DNA of 64,000 nucleotides from Acanthochlamys bracteata (taxonomy: Eukaryota > Streptophyta > Magnoliopsida > Pandanales > Velloziaceae), in contig CM034126.1 of assembly GCA_019914995.1 (NCBI GenBank), positions 10,173,001 through 10,237,000 of the forward strand. Reading direction: 5' to 3'. Below are positions 42,620 to 58,760 of this stretch, in pieces. The notes beneath the pieces are model-generated. The model saw nothing but the letters and a program-made list of their open reading frames with translations. It was not told where the DNA came from and did no database searches. How positions within the stretch are numbered: the stretch's first letter is position 1; each line of letters starts with the position of its first letter. The position numbers and the translations under genes were made by a program.

Positions 42620-44892
42620 TCCTTTTTTCTCATGCACCACTACTTCATGGTAATTTTGACCTACAAAAATGAAATGGAAGTTTGATTGTGCTTGTCGAGT
42701 AACTTAACAGAACATATTTGTTGACAAGAAAACAACTACTAAATATATTGCTAATGTAGAAACCTTGTCTGATAAGGACTAGCTGAAGCAGCTTAGCTTC
42801 ATTCCTAGCTGTTGAATATCGTAATCCTAAATGAAAAATTGTTATGTTTTTTGTCAGCTATTTGTTTGAAATATCTTTTATTCTTCCAATCTTTTAGCAA
42901 CTAAAGAATTGCATGTAGGATTTTGATGTATACTGAGTTTCGTTTTGGTAATTTGTTTCTTCTATAGCTGCTCTCCTTTGTTCAGTAAAACATTTTCATT
43001 AAAAATGGCTTGATTTTGTGCTGTGAATAACCTTGGAAGTGATTCCATTGTTGAGCTGATGGGGACATGGATAACGCTGGCAATTTGTCTATACTGACCT
43101 GTTTTAGTATATTTGTTGTTAGATCCCTAGCAACAATAAGATAATTATCAAAACATAATTCATTTATCCATTCTGAAATAACGAACTAATCATTAACAAC
43201 CTAATGAAAGAATAAACAAAAATTTAAATCCTGTAATCTGCAGCTTGTTCTCTTACATGTTTGGCTCTTGCTAGGTATGGGCATGTTTAGAATAAACTCG
43301 CTTTTTCGAAAGTGAGTTTAAAAGATAAATTAAAAATTAAAAATTAATTATTTTTTATTATAATTAAATTTTAAAATTAAATTTTTAATAAAAATAATTT
43401 ATTTAATTTTTTAATTTATTTTGTATTAAAAATAAGTTTAAAATAAGTGAGTTTGAAAGGTAATGTAAACAAACCCTATATGTTTCTGGACCTTGTGCTT
43501 ATATATGGAACTGAACATGTCTTTGTAGCTTACATTGAATTGCACTGAGCTCTCTTTTATGGTATGGATTCACCAATATTTTATTTTCCTTATCATGAAG
43601 ATGCTTTTCTATAAATTCTGGTACTGATTATTGAGAGGCTCCACAAGGATGTACTCAGATATTTAAGAACAAGGTCGCAAGTGTTACGTTGTAGTTTTTT
43701 GGTTTTCGTTTCTTAGAAACCCATCTTTAAAGCGTATCCTAACCAAAGTTTTTCCTTTTTTTACGAGTTTCCAAAACTTGTCTTCAAATAATTTACTCAA
43801 AATTATCAAAGCAAATCAATGAGAAATTACATCCAGTGGCCACAGAAATTTCGGCCAACTACCACCGCCGACGTCAAAGGAGTTCTGCCATCCGGAGATG
43901 CTCCGGTAGGTGATCACCGGCTAACCTACCCGTCGACAGCAGGATCTTACCGTCCACCGGCTTTGATGGCCGAGCTCCGGCGGGATTTGCTAGAGTTTTT
44001 GTTAATTTATTTTAAGATGAAATTTATTATTTTTATAATTCTTTTGCTAGAAACTTACATTTTAGCACCAAACAAAATTTATTTTTGTTTTTGATTTTTT
44101 GTTTTCTAGCTTTTACTTTTGGTTCTCATTTTTGGTTTCATATTTTAAAAAGTGTTAAGAGTAATGATTGGAACTTCCTTTAACATTGCATTAGGCATTA
44201 GTACACCAGCTTCAAACTTTGTAGTATATAAATCATTACGGTAATGTTTGCCGTGGTTATGAAACAAATTTTAAAAAATTTATGGACTTTTTGTTATCTC
44301 AAAAAATAATAATAATAAATAATAATAAAATTTTATGAATAATTTTTTATAAAATATTATAAAAACTTTTATTAAAAATATAATATAAAAATTAAATAAA
44401 AAATATTAAAAAATATTCTCAAATATCTCTAAGAAAGCGATCAATAGAAGATTAGGGTTCATACTGATTTACATGATATTCAAAATATTAACTATCATTT
44501 ATTGGTAACAACACTTGAGATTGCTAAAAAACATAAATTCTTGTACTTCTTATTCGACATTCATACAAAAAAAAAAAAAATTATACAACATCAAGGCCTT
44601 ACAGGATAATATGGTTGGTGAAGAACTGAAGATAACAGTATAATTCATCGCTGCAACTTCATTCTAGTCACGTTTTACTTAACAGCAACGGTGACCAGAG
44701 TGCCGCAGATAAGCCAGCTTCCCATGGTAAAAGGTATCCTCTACATCATCCTGTGCAGCTACTTAGAAAAAATGATATGCTACAAAACTTTTAACCAGTT
44801 GCCCCAACCAGATATCGAGAGATGACAATAATAAAAGTGATATGCTACAAACTTTTAACCAGTGCCGAAGATGCTAATTCTCAATCTAGCAA
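42620..44892. other. Convergent spacer between TET10 and SAC9
   Basis: The two genes point towards each other here. The left part (to about 43,050) should be TET10 3' untranslated sequence, and the right part from about 44,600 that of SAC9. In between lie a small inverted-repeat element (43279-43476), a GC-rich island (about 43,825-43,995) and AT-rich sequence. No gene is supported. Confidence 0.5.
43279..43476. mobile_element. Small AT-rich inverted-repeat element
   Basis: The ends GGGCATGTTTAGAATAA and (reverse complement) GGGTTTGTTTACATTACC are inverted relatives, followed on each side by copies of an AAACTC(G/A)CTT-type motif. The body is nearly pure A/T. TAT flanks both ends. A 198-bp MITE is the simplest reading. 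Confidence 0.5.
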
Positions 44893-47800
44893 TCAAACCA
44901 TTGATAGACTAGCTAGTTTCCCAAGATCATAGGGATCTGCATAATAGAACAATTTAATTCTATTTGATAAAGAGAGACCCAAAGCCAATGGAGATCTCAA
45001 TTCTGGGCGGTCATCCTGCTCAATTACATCATCTGCAAAGGCAGCAACATCTCCAAATAACCTAAAAACGAACCGTCCAGCTTGTATAGGCCGAGGAAAA
45101 TCAAAATAGAGAGCTGTTCCAGATTTAACTTCTGGTAAACGGTATTCCCCAATTGTAACATAATTTCTCGAGTCCTGTAAATAAGGCTCAATTTATGCGT
45201 ATCAGTTAAGAAAAATTAGGATAGAACATTCTTGATATTGCCAAAACAAAGGGCTTAAATTATTGAACCATCAAAAGGGAAGTTGAATAAGAGAGCAAAT
45301 AAGTAAACAATCCAATATCATGCAAATGTTAAAAGGAATAACTAAAAAATTCGATGTTCAAAATGGTTAGCACAAAAGTCTCAATGCCCATTGAATATAA
45401 AGAAAATTGGGCAGAGAGGAGAACGAGAGATAAATGACTACTAGAGCTATGAGCTGTTTCAGAAATCAGTTTGGAACTTGGTAATAAAACTAAAGGCATG
45501 TTCCCTAAGTAAAATGAACATGGAACATATTCATTAGCATGTATATACAAGATAGTGGAGAATCACCAAGTCAATGAAACTAAACTGATCAACTTTTTTA
45601 TATTAGGAGTTGAGTTGCATGTGGACTGCAGGCAACATGTTTTTTTCACATTAAGAGAACTAAAATAGCACCAATCCTCCAAACTTCAGAATATTAAGAA
45701 GAGAAATTGGTACATTGAATTGAAGCTGTTTCCGTCAGCTTGAATAGCATCTCACTTGCAATCAAGTTCAGTAAAATATGATATAGGCAACATGAAGATG
45801 CAGCCAGATGTTAGAAGGACACTATAACAAGTACCTGAACAACAGAAACTTGGATATGTAGAACTGCAGGCATAATGTGCCTGTCTTCTAAACATGTCAA
45901 CGAGGATTCCCATATACTTGTATCCAAGAAGGAGGGCAAGTGGGTAATCCGAGGTTTTATGATATTTAGTGCATCCAAACGAAATCCTGCTATGGGCACT
46001 GTGGGAGATAGATATTGCTCCAGAACTAGGTCATTATCGGTTAACCTCTCAGATTCAATTGGAACCTGGAAAAAAAAAAGTCACATGATGGTTTACGAAG
46101 GCAAAAGAAGATGACAATTCATTACCACAAAAGACAACAAGACAAGAGCATTTACTCTAAACCGACTGAGTTGAGGTGCTCTTTCCAAAAAGTTTCTCAT
46201 CTTCATTTTTTCTTGGCCTTGTACCAATGCGTCAGCGTTTACATCATTTCTCACGGATTTGCCAAACACCAAAAACCTTCTTGCATGTATGCAGGACTTC
46301 CTTATGGAACTTTTACTCAAAAAGGAGTGGCTGATCTCTGGCAAGGGGCTGTCATCGAAAGACAGAAGATCATATTCCTTCTTCCTGTTACTTTGTTCTA
46401 AACCCTCCTGTGGAATAGTTAGCGTTATCCATATGATCCTGCACCTGATTGGATTATGAAAGGAAAGTTTTATATGCCTCGGGGCATCATTGCCACCGGA
46501 AGATGTTTCAGGACCACAAAGATGCGGTGATGATGAGACTATTGACTGGACGTCCCATTTTCCCATGCATGAGCGTTGCTCAGTATTTATCTTATTGCTT
46601 GCCCAAATTTGGACCTACACGAGTTTGACGTTTGAATATCAAGAGCAAGGAATAAGCGAGAAAAAGTAAAATGATAGAAAAGAAGGAATCTGATAATAAG
46701 TTACAAACACTACAAATAGAATGCAACTTGTTGGAAACATGCAGAGGATATTTGTGAAGACTCCTAGTTCTATAATGATCATGTTTTATGACTTTAAGCT
46801 GGACATTCTAGTAAAAATTCTGTTTTTCCAAGAGATAGAAGTACCTTTTCCAAGATGAACTTTAGAGTGTCGCAATAGTACGAACTATGGAACTAGCAAA
46901 AGACAATGTGAGGCAAGCAGTTCATACTACAGTGTCGTTTCAGCAATTAATTGGTTATAAATGTATTTAGAAGCTCCATATCAGCTATTTTAAAGCTGTC
47001 AAGAAAATCTAGAGCATCATGCTAATGAAAGTATAATCATCAAAAACACCTCACATCAATTCTAATCAAAATCCATATTGCAGACACAAGAAAATGGGGA
47101 GGCATTCGCCACCTAACTCTTTATATTGCTTTTCGTACTCACCCTCCAAGGAATCGATCTAGCAATATCCATGAATCTAAGTTCAGCATATCCAGAAGAC
47201 CTTTGATATAAGATAGGGCATATCCAATTTGTTTTATTTCATGGAAACGAAGCACATAGTTTAACCTAGTGACACAATGCTCTACCTTTTATTATATGAG
47301 AAAATACGCTTTAATAAACAAATAAGTTCAGAAACTTACAACTGGGCAATCTAATGAGGAATAACCACATGAACTGACAAGCAAGACAACTCCAGAGACA
47401 TCCGAGAGACTCCCAAGAACAATAGAGAATTCTACAGTTGACATATCTGGAGGAGAATACCAGTATGAAGTTAGTGATTCCTACTCCAAGTGGTGCCAGC
47501 AATGAAAATGGTGGTTCTGAACCATTCCCTGTTTCAACCTACAAAACGAGATACTTTAGTTTTAAGATAGGGCTATCCCTGTCTTAGCTTGAACTAAAGC
47601 CATTTATCTAGAGGGGTAAGAATGACAAGCTAGTCAGCTTTCTATTGACATGCAACTCTAGATCAGAACTCAGGAAACTCCATGACTTCAAAACTTCAGA
47701 AGACGTCATAAGGCAGACGCTGTGAGACTGGGAGGAAGGAGTAAGTAACTAAACTAGAATAATATAAATATCATTTATCAGTCCACACTATTGAATAAAA

Positions 47801-50800
47801 TCTAGAAGACATGACCAAATCACCTACATGCTAGACAGAAATACCAAGATGCAAAAGTACTTGGAGAGATCAGGACAATAGCCAGCAATACTATACGCCC
47901 CACTAGAACAACAAAATAGCAGATAGGTCAACATAACTAGCTAATAAATCATTACAAAGCACAGCAAGTGGGCCGTTGAAATGGGACACAAGGTGGGATG
48001 CAAAATATTATTGCTTCTTTACAGAGTGGTCTCAAAGAGACCCCTTGCAGTTCGGCAATTGGAACTGTTTATGGATAAATGTCATTGCAGGCTTCAATAC
48101 AGAAAAATGCAAAAGATTAAGAGTGCCACAAAGTATTAACTTTTATTGATCACACAGTAGAAGCTTTTTGGTGATCCTTCAGAAGACATGCTCGCTAGGA
48201 AGTCATACAATGACATAAAATTTCTATATACCAATCAGATGCTAAAAAAGACAATGAGTATCTAGTGAGAAAATTTTTTTTGAGGCATACGTTTTGCAAG
48301 AAGCCTGCATATGGAAATTCAGCTAGAGATTCTTCTCTAACCAGCAACTTTTTCAGTAGCATGTTCCCATTCTCCAGGCCTTTCAAAGAGTCAGATGCAT
48401 TTTTCTTATAATGTCCCAGGACATCAGTCAGAGCCTTACATGCTGCATCATCTGCTCTGGTTCTTCTGCGTAAGCTACACAAAACTCTTACATAATCCAA
48501 ATGTAAAGCATCAATGATAATTTCAGCACAACATGACTTGCAAATAATTCCATCAGAATGGTCTGAGTGGTTGAGAGAAGAGATGTCTCTTTGAACTCCA
48601 AGATTGCTATTCGGCTTTCTTAAGTCTTTGTAATTATGGCTTTCTAGCAGAGTAGCACCTCTGCCAGCACAACAAACTTTGCATACTCTTTTTCTGCATT
48701 GGGAACACTGCAAAAGCATCATTGAGGATGTTGGAGTATTAGATAATGTTCTTGAAGGGGGTCGTACAGCTCGAACTTCACACATGTTTCCTGAGCAGAA
48801 TTCCCCAATTTGTACAATGTTCCAAAAATCAATACTGTCGCGTTCCTCACTTTCCAAACCGATAGAGGCATTGACCTTGTCTTCAAAAGCTTCCTGACCA
48901 AGAAGTGCCAAGCTAGTTGCATAGTTTCGAAGCCTTATCATATAAGACTCGTCAACTAAACGATTTGGATCAATAGTCACAGGACCTATACTGATTGAGA
49001 GCAGAGCTCTATCTCTTTCAGCAGCAGAAAGATCCAAATCAAGGCGATTGATTTCAAGCATAATGGCATCAGAGAAGTTTATGCTTTGCTGCAGAAATGG
49101 TCCAAGACAAGTCATTAGTTTCTAAAAGGTTATTCAGCACGATATGCCAGTAATATATTGCAGTAAGAGGAAATATTTTTTGAAACGATTAGGATCCATA
49201 AGGAAAACTACAACTTGAAAAATGTTCAACAAGAAAACCTATCATGAAGTTCACTTTCTACATGAAAGTCACAAACGAAACAATAGTTAAACAAATAAGT
49301 CAAAACATTAGACTTCAAAAAAAATATAGGAAGAATAACAAAGCCTCAGTGATTTGGTTAACTTAATGATTTGACCAAATGCCTACTTTAACAGAGCATG
49401 TTAGGAATCTTCAGATACCTTTCGAGAATCAAAAAGCGATCTGACAAAAGATAAGTATTGCTGCATGCCAGTTAGCTCATTACAGGACTCAGTTTTTGGA
49501 GGAGAAGGCATTTCAGGTTCAGATGGCAGAAGTGGATGAGATCCAACACTATCAAAAAAATTAATTACCCCTTCATTCAAAAAGCCAGAACTTCCAGACT
49601 TGCCTAAACCTTTCTGAGAACTTGATTCTGAAAACAAGAGATCTCCAGTAAGAAGGTCTATCTTGTGAGTAACTGCAATAGCTTGAGCTGATTGGATAAA
49701 GTTTTCATCATTGGAAGGAGCATCCTCATGCTTATCAGAAAATGAATCTCCAAGGAAAGGATTTGTGGAGTCTTCAGCTGGAAGCATGTTAATGTGGTTA
49801 ATTCTTTTCTCAGTAAGCTCAATAAATTTTGTGCTGGATCCTTCACCAGTAAATATCTCTGTCCAAGGAAGAGACATGCCAAGTATCTCGATCTGCAAGA
49901 AACTGGGGCCCTTAATATACGCATCAAGTAAAGCCTAAACAACAATTTTAAAGATGGCTCCCAACATAAGATAAAAATATCTTCTTGCAGCCTGCTTAAC
50001 ATTTTCTAGGAGCAAGTGCAAGATGAAAATTCATTACGATAACCATAACAACATGATACTATCTCCTCACAAGTTGCCTGGAAAGTACTCAACTCCACTT
50101 TTACCTCTCCAGCCAAACTACTTATGGCCAGAGTTTGGAGACAACTTCAAAGGACAAGATCTACCTGTGCTCTCCCCCCTCCCCCATCTATATGCTCTTG
50201 ATCTAACCAGCAATGCTTCTGCAATCAGATTCTCAAAGAATTGGGGATCTTTGATAACCAAGGTAATAACTAATTCGCTATTAATTAGCATTGACACATG
50301 CACAGTTCTTTATTCTCTATCACATGCAGGTAAGCTGCTCGAGGCTAAATGGCTGTCAGTCCTAGCCTCTCCATCATCTGATGGAGAGAATAGGGCAAGC
50401 AGAGAGCGCGTTCAGGTGAGGTGGTTGTCTCAGATCATCTAGTGTAGCACTCCAACTTCATCATTTTATTTGCTCCAATATGTTATTCTCTGTTATTTGT
50501 CTCTCTCTAAAATGGAGAAGCAGCAAGATAGAAAATAAAAAATTCAATTTGAAAGTTAAAAGAGTGTTAAAAATAGTAGCACCAAGAGAGGGGGGGGTGG
50601 GCTGGGGCACGAAGGAGAGGTTGGTGGTTTAAATCCTAGCATTGCTGGTTTATCTCAAAAGAAGTGCTAATAACAAATAATATTAATAATTTTCATCATC
50701 ACTCATAAGTGAAAAAAAATGTGATTCAACAAAGTGGTCACGTCTTATTGCCATAGCAACAGTAGTCGCCTAAAGAAACATTCTAAACATGAGCAGTCGA

Positions 50801-53800
50801 TTCCATAAATTGAAATGAGCCCAAATGGGCAACTTTATTACATAAGCTTAAAAACACTTGCATCAGCTTAGAAACATAAAAATACCAATGTGGGCAAGAC
50901 TACAGTTGTTAGCATGGTAAGGGTTGCAGGAAAACCAAAAGAAAAGCAAACAGGACGCAATCCAGTATGATGTACAGTAACCACTCATCTTGTCTTCTAA
51001 CAAGAGTTTGTGTAAACAAAATAGTAAGCCATCTCAAAGATTCAGATCACATTGTACTTTTCAATCAAATTTCTACCTCACCGAGAGTAAGAGGAGCTCT
51101 TCCTGCGACAGCTGGATAAAATGTAAGTGCAACCACTCTAGTAAGAAAGTTCAGTTCGCCTTCCAATTCTTCAAAATCATATAACAGTGGAGGATAGGAA
51201 TTGTCTTGACCATGAATTCGTGAATTGGTACCAGTAATAGCTAAATCTTCAGGATTTATTTTTCCTGCCAAAGGTATTGCAATATTTGTCCCTTGTGCAC
51301 ACCGAGGTATACAAGCACCCTGTAGTGATAAAAAAACAACGATGCATCTGATTAGAAGTTCACTAAAAATTTAACCCTAAACACGAAATACATGAATTGC
51401 AATCTGCACAGTATGAAACACGCTTAGTGCAGAACTAGAATTCATTCCCTATTTTCTCCAGTGTAAAATAAAGGCCACAGATTGCAACTCAGAAATTAAC
51501 AACTTTTTGTCAATCAGGATACAGAAGCTAGACCATGAAAAACTTAGATGCCAATGTCATAAGCACATGGCAAAGCATGTCTACAGATCAGCATTTTTAA
51601 TGTTTACAGAGATTTTAATGCTAAACACCTAATATGAGAAATCGTAATATGTGCAGTACAAAGCATACTTAGTTCACATAAAAATTGAATTTCCCATTTT
51701 TCAAGTATAAAATGGAGATCTCAAGATCATAAATCACAAGAATAACATTTTTTGTTTCTCAGGATCCAGAAGTTAAACCATAAAGTACTTAGATGGCAAT
51801 ATAATAAGTACATGACAAAGCATGTTTAGAGACTCCACAGTTTAATTAGAAAATTTTAAATTAACACTGCTCTCTAAGTAACTGTCAAAGAAAGGCCAGC
51901 AAAAGAAAACTCTTGAACCCCAATAATCTTGGCATTGCTTTTGCTAACTCTTCCATGAATATTTGCATAATCATACCTTTCCAACATAATTTCAATGCAG
52001 GACTGCTCTAACTATGTTCATTAGTTACAATCACCCTCCACACAAGAAGGTGACAGCTAACACCACAAGCTAGAATGGGCTTCATATCCCAAAAGGGTGG
52101 CACTAATGTGACCCTAAATAATTAGTTGCATAGCCATCCATACCTTTCCACATAGACATAATTTATCATGCAGTATTGCTCCAATCATGTCCATTACTTA
52201 CAATTACCCTCAAGTACAAGAAGGTGACAGCTAACACCACAAGCTAGAATGGCCTTGATATCCGGAAAAGGTGGAAGGTTATAACATCAACTTTCGCTTA
52301 TTATGATTCGATTGACTAGATTTTGGATATAGAAATTTCAGTTACAGATTTCTGATTTGCCCAAGTATCACCTTCATTAAAATTGTAAACCTAATTGCTA
52401 TTACAGATATTAAAAATATAAGAAAAAACATAATACTACATGATGATCATATCTTATGTCAGATGACATACTCCTCCAGCTCCTTTAATTGCATTTAAAA
52501 TCAATCTAATGATCCTTGGATGTAAGCAAAAGAAACATCATGTCATCATACTTATAAAAGCTATTAAAACACCCCAGATTGTTCTGATACTATCCTCAGT
52601 GATTTTTACAGAGCAACTTCAATTTTTCAATATAAATGTCAGATACATGCAGACTATACAAATAAAGAAATAACAAATGAGAGAAAAACATTTCTTCTGG
52701 CTAAGATCTAGTAAAACGACTTCTACACAGAATAAATTAAGATTAAAGATTAAACATGGTCTCAATTGTGGTAAAGAAATATACGATATCATAGTGAAAT
52801 TATAAGCAAACCTCGAGAATTAGTTTCAGCCGATCCAAACTGCACCCAGTTCTGACATCTACTGTTGCTGGAAATGAAGAGTCATCTGAACCATGTGAGA
52901 CAGTGAGAAGGAGCTGACAAACATGGCATGGCTCTCCAAGATATATAAAAAGTTCAATTACGTCTGCAGCTGGTGGACAAACCTGTGAAAGAGAGCAACA
53001 AAACTACTTCCTATACATGTACTCGAAATATAAAAAGAAAATATATTGAAAAGGATGAGAGTTCTTGTAATCTTTAGCATATGAAGAAAATAGTATTAAT
53101 AACTACAACAACCTACCCAAACTACGTCTTTCCTTTTATAGCTTAGAAGAGTTGAACCGGTATCAGCAATAGGGAACATATTTCCAATTGGTTTCAGTAA
53201 GCATCCAGATGGCCGTGATAATACCTGATACGTAAGTCTATAAGTGAAAAGACCCAGTTGCAGACATTCCAAGAAATATATCAAGTAATTTCAAAAACAT
53301 TATCGCCAACACTTGACATAATTCAGCAACAGAAACATCTTATGCAAATATTTAAGAAATACTGCATATCTGTGTTTAGAATAAGACGTGAATTCATCTC
53401 ATGAGAAAAGAAGAAGAAGAAGAATAGACATAAATCATAACTCATAAATAGTATTCCGAGGATTGTTAAAATATTTCCAACTGAATTAGGCATACTTGTA
53501 TACTCCACCCAAAAGTAGACGTTATGCTGAACAAGATAAACTTATGACATTTCACTAGACCTCATTACTGTAGTTAGGATCTTTCATGAGTAGCCTCAAC
53601 ATATGAAAGTAGAGTTACATAAGAGGATTAAAATTTGTAAACAAAGATGACCTTTGCTTACTAGGTGACAACTTCTGTAAATCTTCAATAAGGTCACATT
53701 CTGACCACCAAAGCCAATCTGCAAATAACTAATTCACTAGGCCTTGCTTTTAGACATACATTATCACGTGTTTTCTTCCATGTTGGAGACTCCCGTTTAT

Positions 53801-56800
53801 ATGAAATATGCAACATAAGTTACATAATAGAAAACCCCAGGTGTGATTAAATCTGTTCATGACCATGACCAGTTGCCTAATAAGCTTCCAGAACCAATGA
53901 GAAGTCGGTGCAGTGGTGACTTAGGCTCCCTTAGGTTCAGGATTTTAAGGCATCAAATATAAATATTTAAAAGAATAAAAAGGAAAACACAGATCAAATA
54001 TGTATTGGAGGGTGGTGACAGCTATAGCATGTGCTTGCTATACCTACTTTCAGAGGGTGTATTGGAACAGAAGGAAGATGCTTGAAGAGCCTTATTCCAA
54101 GGAACATTTCCAGCTGCTTCTGGCGGGAACTATCAACAAGAACATTTTTGTATCTTCTTTGCAATGTGATTTTCATATTTTGTGCTGCAGAGAACTGTCT
54201 AAATTTTCCAGAATCATCATTAAATATGTTCAATATCTGGCTGTGCATGGCTCTGGAACCAGTATATAATGTAGCATGAATATCACCTGCTAGCAAGAAC
54301 AGATCAGCAAGCTGAACTAGAGGAGCTAGCACGGTTGAACTTTTGAATTCTTCAAACGTCATATCAAATCTCTCCCAAGGCATGCCTTGAGACTCCTGAT
54401 ATGGACGTTCCCACATTGTAGTTCGTGTGTTATGGTCAATATAATAGGTCTTGCCTGTTACTGTATCTGAACGTTCCTCCCACCCTGGTGGCAAAGCACT
54501 ATATCTTCCAGCGCTACCCCAGTCACAAGATCTAGTAACTGAAGGAATCCTAAACAAGGCATCTCTATCGAGAGATATGCCTAGTCGTCTGCATTGTTCA
54601 ACAAAAACTTGAAGAGATCCAAAATAACTAGCAGCATTTGTTCTATCCAAAGAATCTGCACAATTAAATCGTATAACTCCACTTTGAATTGAACTTAGGC
54701 AGAACCCACCTTGCACGTTCTCGTTATAAAGTACTACTCCTTTACTATCTTTAAGTAGTTCAGTTGAAAGATAATAATTGCCTTCAGAGAACCCAATAGT
54801 TGCTGTGGGTGGTTTTAAAAGTTTCCAGAGCCCTTCTACTGTCTGTTGCTCACCTCTTGCTTTTACACTAGCATGCCAATCATAATTTATTAATTGAATC
54901 CAAGTATTACGTAGCTTTCCTGTTGCTTTAACATACTTAATTGACTCCTTAAAATGCTCCACTAATATAGTCTCTGCCTTCCCTTCTCCATTCCTCAGTA
55001 AGTTAATGCAAACAATTGGAACAAGGGGTTTTTTGTTTTGTTTGATAGCAGAAGAATCTGAATTCCTAGCTCCATATCTCTTGCTCAATCTTTTATAGTA
55101 TTGCAAGCTTCCCCTATATGGATCTTGAGCTGAAACATAAATTTCAGCTTCTGCAGCAGTTAATTTCAATTCAGCACCCCACCAGATGGGTATTGTTCCA
55201 CGGCGCCAGACATAAGTGCTGAATGGAACACTAGTTCTTCCCGACAACCAAACAATTTGCTCGCATTCTACCTCATTTCCTAGTAAAGGATCCAATTCCA
55301 GTAAGACAATTTGGAACTATGAATCATTCATCAGCGAGAGCTATTTATAGGAATAGAATCTCTAAAGAAACCCTTCACTTTAGGGTACTCTCACCTGTGC
55401 TTGAACAGGCATTCAGCCCTCTAGCCAAATAACGAGTGCCAGGATGCAATCTACTTCGACGTGCAATCAAAGCAACAATGCCTGCTTGCTGGCTGGAGCC
55501 ACCGAATCCTCGATACTCTGCAAATCCCTGAAATATAGAATCACTGAAAGTTCATTCTGAATATACAAAATGATATAAGAAACAATGATAACTGTAGGAA
55601 ACCTACTCATTACAACAGCTTGAGATTAGGCAAGCTATTGAACCCCAAGTCTGTGGAGTTGGCCATATTCCTGATTTTAGGACCTTATAGTAAGGAATAA
55701 TGGGCTTCAATTTTTGAAAAATTTTGTCTTACAATTTACTATACATGTTACATACTTTGGCATATACTGAAGTCCACTAATCCTACTAGCTGAAACCAAA
55801 TGTTATAAGAATTAATGTTCAACCATAATATCAAGTATTTACTATCAATGTTGATGTATGAATCAGTGTTGACGTATGAACTCTAGTAACAGAATCACTG
55901 CAAAAGAGTGTTCAATAAAAGATCAACTTAGGAAAAAAGTAAACATAGATCATTACTTGAAGAAGAGTCGCACAGTGTGTTGGCAAACCAATATCTTTAA
56001 AAGGCTTTGAGAACCAAGCATTCCATACAAATTCGTTATCTGGAGTCTGAATATTCATAGAGCTTGGAAATGGGTGGGTAATATCCCTCCTCTCACAAAA
56101 GTAGTGCTTTCCATCAATGTCAAGGTCAGCTAATTCGTGGATATTCTTTAGTTCACTTTTGCCTTGAGGTTGAGGGTTCTGGAGCTGAACCTTGATCCAC
56201 TGGCTTTCAGAAACTGTATATACACATCCACCTCCAGGTAGGCTTGGGATAGTAGCTGTCACTCTTGTTGCAACCAAGAGAAGACCAACACCTCCCAGAG
56301 CAGAATAACCAAGTATAGCTCTAGCATAAGTTGTGCTTTTACACAACCACCGCGAAGCATCTGTAATGAATCTCAACGCCTCTTCTTCAGCATGAAAGAG
56401 ATCAAATCCTAACTCGCCACGATAACACAATGACCCGGTTGTCGGATCAATGTATATAACTTGCGTATCATCCCTTGTCGACAAAGTCACGATGATATAA
56501 ACTTCGCTCGTTTCTAGCACAACAACAATAACAGACGTATCCCTTCCACCTAAAAACAAATTCATCCAGAGTAAATTACATACAAACTAATTTTCTCGAA
56601 TTCAACAATGACAAACTATCAAAAAGATCCAATCTTTCACCGATACCAATACTGATTCGATTAAATAGTACAAAATTCATCCTATTATTTCAAGGATGAA
56701 AACAATTTGAAGGAGAGAGAAATTATAGACAAGAGTCACAAAACCAACAGAGAAGTATCATATATATAGAAGTGCTAAAAAAACTCACCGGAATCTAGAG

Positions 56801-56825
56801 ATCTGGTGGAGAACGGAGTAGCCAT
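44893..56825 (-). CDS. SAC9: SAC9-type phosphoinositide phosphatase with WW domain (frameshifted in exon 10)
   Basis: SAC9 lowers PtdIns(4,5)P2 in plants, and Arabidopsis mutants show constitutive stress responses. Thirteen exons: 56825-56789, 56549-55957, 55527-55395, 55279-54048, 53224-53117, 52982-52812, 51319-51077, 49892-49419, 49088-48291, 47538-47340, 46614-46156, 46065-45835, 45174-44893. The Sac catalytic loop is RFNCADSLDRTN (C461-x5-R467), the variant typical of SAC9. A WW domain follows (LPPGW...TTMWERP, Trp521 and Trp544). A Cys-rich segment (CSQCRKRVCKVCC, then CKSCC) lies in exon 9. Intact length would be about 1652 aa, against 1646 in Arabidopsis. Exon 10 is 199 nt although both its ends are phase 0, and an extra A/T near 47468-47469 shifts the frame after residue 1286. 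Read literally, translation stops early in exon 11 at about 1336 aa. Homology resumes downstream in the other frame. Confidence 0.93.
51355..51840. repeat. Diverged tandem duplication in SAC9 intron 6
   Basis: Two units of roughly 240 bp, about 51355-51600 and 51608-51840, share an ordered series of blocks: TAAACAC..AATA, GTGCAGTA/GCACAGTATGAA, CTTAGT, AATTTCCCATTTT/ATTCCCTATTTT, CAGGATmCAGAAG, ACTTAGATG, AAGCATGT. They are diverged, so old. Confidence 0.6.
51972..52274. repeat. Second direct duplication in SAC9 intron 6
   Basis: The unit 51972-52100 is repeated at 52139-52274. Both contain CATACCTTTCC, TGTCCATTA/TGTTCATTA, CTTACAATTACCCT/GTTACAATCACCCT and a perfect stretch AAGAAGGTGACAGCTAACAC that runs on through CACAAGCTAGAATGG. 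It is separate from the 51.4-51.8 kb duplication but in the same intron. Confidence 0.75.
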
Positions 56826-57560: not shown

Positions 57561-58760
57561 TATAGGGCGTTCTCATTGTAATTTCATTGCGATATGTATA
57601 CCAGTATGAAATGCTGTCTTCAGCATCTACCTGAATCGACTGAATATTCGACGTACTGCATGATTCATTCGTGTTTGATGGGACAAAACTTTACGTTCTA
57701 CAATACTGAAGACATCATTGTAAATATCTTGTCTTCTAATGAAGTTATGAATTATCATTGTGGCAATGACAATGTCACGTTGAATTTTAAATTTATATTT
57801 AGACTTATGATTCAAAATTACAAACCAAGTTTTCCACATATCAAAAGTGTGTTCGATAACACTTTTGCATGAAAAATGCAAACGATTAAACTTTTCTTTT
57901 AGACTTCTCGGAAGTCGATCAGATGATATCTGATACCTTCACCTCCATACGGAGTCATAAAAGTTTGTCTGTGTGGACCAGCATCTACCAAATAGAATAA
58001 CAAACATACAACAAGGTTAGTTAAAAATCATAAACCAAACACAACATTCACACTACAACAAGCATAATGCTTAACAAAATATGCAACAACTAATTATCTA
58101 GTGTTCGCATACATAAACCTACAAGTCAACTAGTTACTGAGAACAACAAACATATCGATACATAACATACACCATATCAAAAGAGCTCCACATAAACGAA
58201 TTTTCAGTTTGACAAATTACTACAACAGAGTGCATAAAGGGTTCTTTTTCGTGTGCTCCTCAAAGTTCTTCTTCATATGCTGCTTATAACTATACTTTAA
58301 CAATGACAATCGACATCCATCGTCTAACTGCTCTCTAAAAAATGATCCTATTATCTTGTTTTTTGAATAACATACAAGTATGTTTCCACAGAACGCCGCC
58401 ATGCTGGATTCCTTGAATCTACTTAAGTATTTGCATACACTTTGTCACGGAATGAATAAGTGGTTGTGTTTGAGATAGTATCTCTGCAAATACAAGAGCT
58501 ATTTTATATATATGGCTTTCTCAATTGAATCCAAACTCTACTAAAGTGACCTCTTTTTTTTTGGAGCTGTTTCTTCCAAATGGTGCTCTAGCAATAGGTC
58601 TAGAGTTGGATGCAGTAAACAAATCTTTCTCAATCATAACGGCATGTGATGAATCTCTAGAACCATTAGTTTTTTTGTGAACATCATCGCTATCCCCATT
58701 GTCGTCTTTGTCGCTTGGACCTTTGGGTTCATCTAGATAATTTTTGTCAGGTTATAATGC
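57560..58760 (-). pseudogene. PIF/Harbinger transposase and partner-protein fragments
   Basis: On the minus strand, 57990-57890 encodes YLVDAGPHRQTF...YHLIDFRE. The frame 57881-57627 encodes LHFSCKSVIEHTF, then VWKT-like WKTWFVI and ATMIIHNFIRR. Together these are the C-terminal third of a DDE_Tnp_4 (PIF/Harbinger) nuclease. Upstream on the same strand, 58740-58550 encodes an acidic then basic linker (DEPKGPSDKDDNGDSDD, later APFGRNSSKKK), like the Myb/SANT-type partner protein of this superfamily. A 60-codon frame at 58220-58402 between them is unassigned. A stop separates the two transposase pieces (after DFREV) and the catalytic N-terminal part is missing, so this is a dead remnant. Confidence 0.65.

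Follow-up and report, generated by a model that had tools for sequence, protein, structure and literature searches.

The window analysed here is a stretch of 64,000 nucleotides (C1:10173001-10237000) of the genome assembly of Acanthochlamys bracteata (195.5 Mb in 557 contigs), and it carries a SAC9 gene whose reading frame is broken by one surplus base in exon 10. We consider this base to be probably a residual consensus error. The window holds one of two SAC9 genes situated in duplicated, collinear chromosome blocks, and the surplus base would have been left over when indel-prone long reads were assembled. The plant would then possess two working SAC9 genes, with the window one coding for 1652 residues. 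In proposing this, we infer both the kind of reads and that they lack support for the extra base.

Structure of the SAC9 gene

The gene model was rebuilt from conserved frames and from GT/AG borders common to both SAC9 copies. The gene is located on the minus strand (44893..56825) and comprises 13 exons, from the ATG at 56825 to the stop at 44893, as supported by the GT/AG borders, a frame conserved relative to the second copy and Pfam matches. Its spliced length is 4960 nt (3 x 1653, plus one), and one frame is kept across the 12 exons other than exon 10. Exon 4 (54048..55279, minus strand, 1232 nt) encodes part of the Sac domain and the WW domain, as seen from its translation and from Pfam. 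The C-x5-R-[TS] motif is present as CADSLDRT (C-x5-R-T), with Syja_N scoring 145.0 bits, and WW (PF00397, 45.7 bits) is found behind the Sac domain at residues 517-547. SAC9_GBDL_1st reached 312.1 bits and SAC9_C8D 58.4 bits. No tRNA genes were found in the window.

Exon 10 (47340..47538, minus strand) is entered in phase 0 and has 199 nt, one base more than its counterpart in the second copy, to which it is 89% identical. The native frame also exits in phase 0; because of the surplus base, exon 11 is read in phase 1 in the literal model, where a premature TAA is encountered within exon 11 (46592..46594, minus strand). In the native frame, exons 11-13 (44893..46614, minus strand) encode the remainder of SAC9_GBDL_2nd together with SAC9_C, as indicated by Pfam and by a dN/dS of 0.231 relative to the second copy. 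The 202 positions of the SAC9_GBDL_2nd profile are thus divided, with positions 1-36 in the literal frame and positions 38-202 encoded one frame over. SAC9_C is missing from the literal product of 1336 aa, and is encoded behind the break in the native frame. The window gene is a SAC9 gene, but its literal product is an incomplete SAC9.

Two further features flank the gene. About 450 bases downstream of the SAC9 stop, a repeat some 150 bases long (window 44257-44440) is dispersed in the genome, with at least 54 matches (38 of 790 candidates scored). Upstream of SAC9, a short open frame on the minus strand (window 57627-57938) is similar to the terminal part of a DDE transposase; its DDE_Tnp_4 match of 20.6 bits falls below the curated cut-off of 24.8, and the frame is probably a transposon remnant.

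Position and size of the frame break

The literal product consists of 1283 native residues followed by 53 out-of-frame ones, which stand in place of 369 lost native residues. The two native parts, each in its own frame, add up to 1652 residues. A first-pass annotation had described exon 10 as a 199-nt exon at 47340..47538 with phase-0 borders, the other exons as summing to an intact 1652-codon frame and the literal stop as falling at about 1336 aa; the rebuilt 13-exon model, the sum of 1283 and 369 residues and the spliced translation of 1336 aa agree with it on these three points. Its estimate of a C-terminal loss of roughly 320 residues was too low: the native loss is 369, and the 1336 residues of the product include 53 out-of-frame ones.

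To locate the break, we tried a one-base difference at every position of exon 10 and counted the mismatches to the 198-nt exon 10 of the second copy. The fewest mismatches (21) were obtained with the difference at 47478, 47479 or 47482, placing the change of reading frame at 47478..47482 (minus strand). The positions proposed previously for the extra base, 47468 and 47469, gave 27 mismatches and are about 10 bases off. Exon 10 of the second copy translates as VETGDGSEPLFSLLAPLGVGSQTAYWYSPPEVSTVEF, and that of the window as VETGNGSEPPFSLLAPLGVG and then, one frame over, as SLTSYWYSPPDMSTVEF. The match to SAC9, earlier taken to run up to GVGITN, holds as far as GVG, while ITN is not native: against GVGSQTAYWYSPPE in the second copy stands SLTSYWYSPPD in the window, read one frame over. 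The SAC9_GBDL_2nd profile, which makes no use of the second copy, agrees with this placement, since it sets the frame switch between its positions 36 and 38. As the homology continues across the switch, a chance match is not an issue. The site of the difference is a base doublet or a single base, not a long homopolymer. The frame break is present in the assembled sequence, and compared with the intact paralogue the window gene carries a disabling lesion, consisting of the one-base difference in exon 10 and the premature TAA.

A second, intact SAC9 gene in a collinear block

The second SAC9 gene lies at C2:9674490..9661390 and shares the 13 exons; it has a spliced length of 4971 nt, an open frame of 1656 aa and an exon 10 of 198 nt. 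It is matched by six Pfam families over nearly their full profiles: Syja_N, WW, SAC9_GBDL_1st, SAC9_C8D, SAC9_GBDL_2nd and SAC9_C. The window copy is matched likewise, in two pieces. In searches of the genome, exon 10 and the Sac-WW exon each matched only C1 and C2, with no third SAC9 copy and no alternative haplotype among the matches. A genome search with the whole 13.2-kb SAC9 gene was uninformative, since among the candidates scored it matched only the dispersed repeat, not even SAC9 itself.

Within the 25 kb compared, similarity between C1 and C2 follows the same order on both sides of SAC9. A pair of GT47 genes, at C1:10286529 (some 57 kb further) and at C2:9739295 (65 kb further), forms a second collinear pair. 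With a dS of 0.28, the SAC9 pair looks like the product of a whole-genome duplication, as judged from these two blocks rather than genome-wide. The GT47 neighbour had itself been a candidate for decay, the open frames on C1 and C2 having seemed different; upon alignment, the differences turned out to be ordinary-looking introns, with open exons. In the search for further frame breaks within the window, three other regions shared by C1 and C2 were compared; their matches were all short and for the most part looked non-coding.

The intact copy on C2 means that even a real break in the window gene would be buffered. The choices offered by the first-pass annotation, namely a consensus error, a truncating allele or a very recent loss, were the right set and all fit, but this second SAC9 was missing from it.

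Constraint and possible age of the break

We compared the window and C2 copies before and after the break. dN/dS was 0.227 before it (bootstrap 0.179-0.279; dS 0.276) and 0.231 after it (bootstrap 0.154-0.336; dS 0.278); the ranges are wide and overlapping, and with two sequences the changes cannot be assigned to either copy. The similarity of the two values argues that the part behind the stop evolved as working code. The downstream Pfam scores were alike as well, at 270.4 bits (window) and 276.9 bits (C2) for SAC9_C and at 236.9 and 232.2 bits in the two copies for GBDL_2nd. Besides exon 10, 5 of the 13 exons differ in length between the copies, all by multiples of three, leaving a single non-triplet lesion in the 4960 nt of the window gene. 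Neither dN/dS nor the exon lengths relative to C2 revealed relaxed constraint or more lesions, and the window copy thus shows no sign of decay over time by these comparisons.

The introns provided an estimate of how many lesions neutral sequence would have gathered. In the nine of 12 introns that are of similar length in both copies (introns 6, 7 and 8 were omitted because of their length or length difference), we counted 65 non-triplet gaps in 3678 aligned bases. At this rate, coding sequence evolving neutrally along one branch is predicted to have gathered about 44 non-triplet indels since the duplication, compared with the one observed. A real loss would therefore have to fall within roughly the final 11% of the time elapsed since duplication, and the break, if real, would be young.

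Quality of the assembly

The state of the assembly was assessed from two groups of contigs. PF00016 (rbcL) gave 44 matches on 16 contigs numbered C26 and up (C26, C62, C64, C134, C147, C180, C185, C201, C217, C221, C262, C263, C277, C324, C382 and C426); in many cases, a match was split across frames. Judging by their numbering and positions, these contigs are small and unplaced. In an alignment of four plastid stretches (3415 columns), private indels took up 89 columns, compared with 61 private substitutions; between pairs, 27-54 gap openings were found as against 15-36 mismatches, with the stretches about 2-3% different. In old nuclear copies of plastid DNA, substitutions would be expected to prevail. 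With indels at least as frequent as substitutions, the pattern points to an assembly from indel-prone reads, and the rbcL contigs have the look of plastid genome contigs built from long reads that were insufficiently corrected. A doublet, however, arose in 0 of the 25 columns with a private insertion in the four stretches, so that the exon 10 site is atypical even for these noisy contigs.

Contigs of the chromosomes appear much cleaner than the plastid ones. Long single-frame stretches without a frame break accounted for 30 of the 45 GRAS matches, 11 of the 36 FAE1_CUT1_RppA matches and 7 of the 84 HSP70 matches, totalling about 55 kb of matches that were chosen as unbroken; the PF03016 and tubulin matches, mostly multi-exon, were left out of this count. 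One of the 11 FAE1_CUT1_RppA matches contains a TAG, in a complete PF08392 exon of the fatty-acid elongase type (C9:2890066-2890935). Other matches consist of adjacent out-of-frame pieces, on C8, C19 and C4 for HSP70 and on C8 for PF08392. The HSP70 pieces on C8 and C19 and the PF08392 pieces on C8 also carry stops and look decayed, the case aligned being that on C4. There, the matches had suggested a one-base error in an HSP70-family gene, which was rejected when the alignment showed a 4-base deletion instead. Applied to these 55 kb, the rule of three sets a limit of at most about 0.27 one-base errors per 5-kb gene, a bound that does not imply the existence of any.

Error or recent loss

The strongest alternative to a consensus error is a real and very recent loss of function of one SAC9 duplicate, either fixed or segregating, with the C2 copy carrying the function. 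We regard this as a serious but less probable reading, at roughly one chance in three. Such a loss would be tolerable, given the intact 1656-aa SAC9 with the same 13 exons in a collinear block. The one lesion seen, against about 44 expected, would place it within roughly the final 11% of the time elapsed since duplication, and the about 55 kb of chromosome exons contain no frame break. Disabled duplicates do occur in this genome, as a duplicated HSP70-family gene on C4 has its own 4-base deletion. On the other hand, the window gene displays neither relaxed constraint nor a second non-triplet length difference, a true loss would look like this only for a short span of time, and the plastid stretches suggest indel-prone data. 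Since the limit of 0.27 leaves room for an error, and the time span for a single-lesion loss is short, we favour an error over a recent loss; this weighing is a judgement and not a computed posterior.

The HSP70-family duplicate in question (C4:9088050-9088750) has its frame broken by the deletion, which affects an exon that the relatives on C3 and C5 retain intact. Another HSP70 copy, at C8:905493-908318 between two intact HSP70 genes, looks decayed, with several frames and stops.

The premature TAA lies in exon 11 of the 13 exons, two exon junctions before the end, and 436 nt separate it from the exon 11/12 junction. Under the usual rule for nonsense-mediated decay, such a stop upstream of exon junctions is a classic decay target. 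If the break were real, a decayed message, and hence a null, would therefore be likelier than a stable truncated enzyme. The statement of the first-pass annotation that the product keeps the Sac and WW domains is correct for the literal translation, which has Syja_N, WW, GBDL_1st and C8D, but decay of the message is likelier than a stable protein.

Splicing and shortened products

A further explanation, which we consider improbable, is that a real extra base is circumvented during splicing, so that a nearly full-length SAC9 would still be made. Every bypass frame is open to the native stop without a base change. Skipping of exon 10 would yield 1586 aa. A candidate inner donor GT at exon position 54 (47483..47484, minus strand; score 4.7) would shorten exon 10 to 54 nt with exon 11 in frame (1604 aa), and another at position 78 (score 4.2) would give 1612 aa. 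A candidate weak inner acceptor AG at position 58 (47481..47482, minus strand; score 1.1) would leave a 141-nt exon in frame (1633 aa). The 24 real donors of both SAC9 copies score 4.0-8.3, the normal exon 10 donor 5.2 and the 24 real acceptors 6.9-15.3, with a small matrix trained on those same sites. Both inner donors thus fall at the low end of the real range, but the GT at position 54 is also found in the C2 copy with a score of 5.3, and is therefore not new in the window copy, and the inner acceptor lies far outside the range of the real ones. Moreover, each bypass form would drop part of GBDL_2nd, a constrained domain. A micro-intron restoring the frame within exon 10 was rejected: of the 21 inner donor-acceptor pairs (at least 20 nt apart) that keep the frame, none has both sites in the real score range. 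Use of the inner acceptors at positions 10 and 22 of the exon was discarded too, as the resulting frame meets a TAG just before the break, leaving position 58 as the only one that helps.

Slightly less probable still is that the break is real and that labour is shared with the sister gene, either by an in-frame SAC9 lacking all or part of exon 10 or by a stable C-terminally shortened Sac-WW enzyme. That such a stable shortened SAC9 (Sac, WW, GBDL_1st and C8D) has taken on a new or dominant role beside its full-length sister is the least credible reading of all, because although the literal product retains four of the six Pfam domains and the catalytic motif, its stop is a classic decay target, it would end in 53 out-of-frame residues, and the part lost is under the same constraint as the rest of SAC9.

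Discussion

Arabidopsis SAC9 (At3g59770) is a plant-specific Sac phosphatase. Among the papers searched, none joined SAC9 with GBDL or C8D. The Arabidopsis protein is described as having a Sac domain with C-x5-R-[TS], a WW domain directly behind it and a long C-terminal region, and as the single member of its clade (PMC9436410). According to the same description, loss of SAC9 leads to dwarf plants with about threefold PI(4,5)P2 (PMC9436410), and a review mentions about fourfold PI(4,5)P2 in roots (PMC8717918). The genes found here share the Sac motif, the WW domain and the long C-terminal region with that account (PMC9436410). Unlike in Arabidopsis, there are two copies in this genome, and the window copy is frame-broken in GBDL_2nd.

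The pair resembles fractionation after a whole-genome duplication, in that one copy is intact and the other carries a disabling indel, within collinear blocks. It differs from a typical fractionation pseudogene by having only one lesion and unrelaxed constraint, and an assembly error looks alike. Consensus indel errors of long reads that split genes have been described for small genomes (PMC12007338). The window gene, conserved apart from a frame break of one base, resembles such cases. It differs in that the site is a doublet or a single base instead of a long homopolymer, and in that the chromosome contigs appear largely clean.

Whether error or loss, the frame break is an ordinary finding. 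If it is an error, as we favour, it concerns annotation only: in gene prediction, a conserved gene would come out split or truncated, and the C2 copy shows the structure to be expected. If labour were truly shared between the two copies, the genome would be a natural test of the roles of the SAC9 C-terminal domains. If the break is a real loss, it would be a fresh loss in a duplicated gene, in which duplication relaxed a strong requirement for SAC9, an event of a well-known kind.
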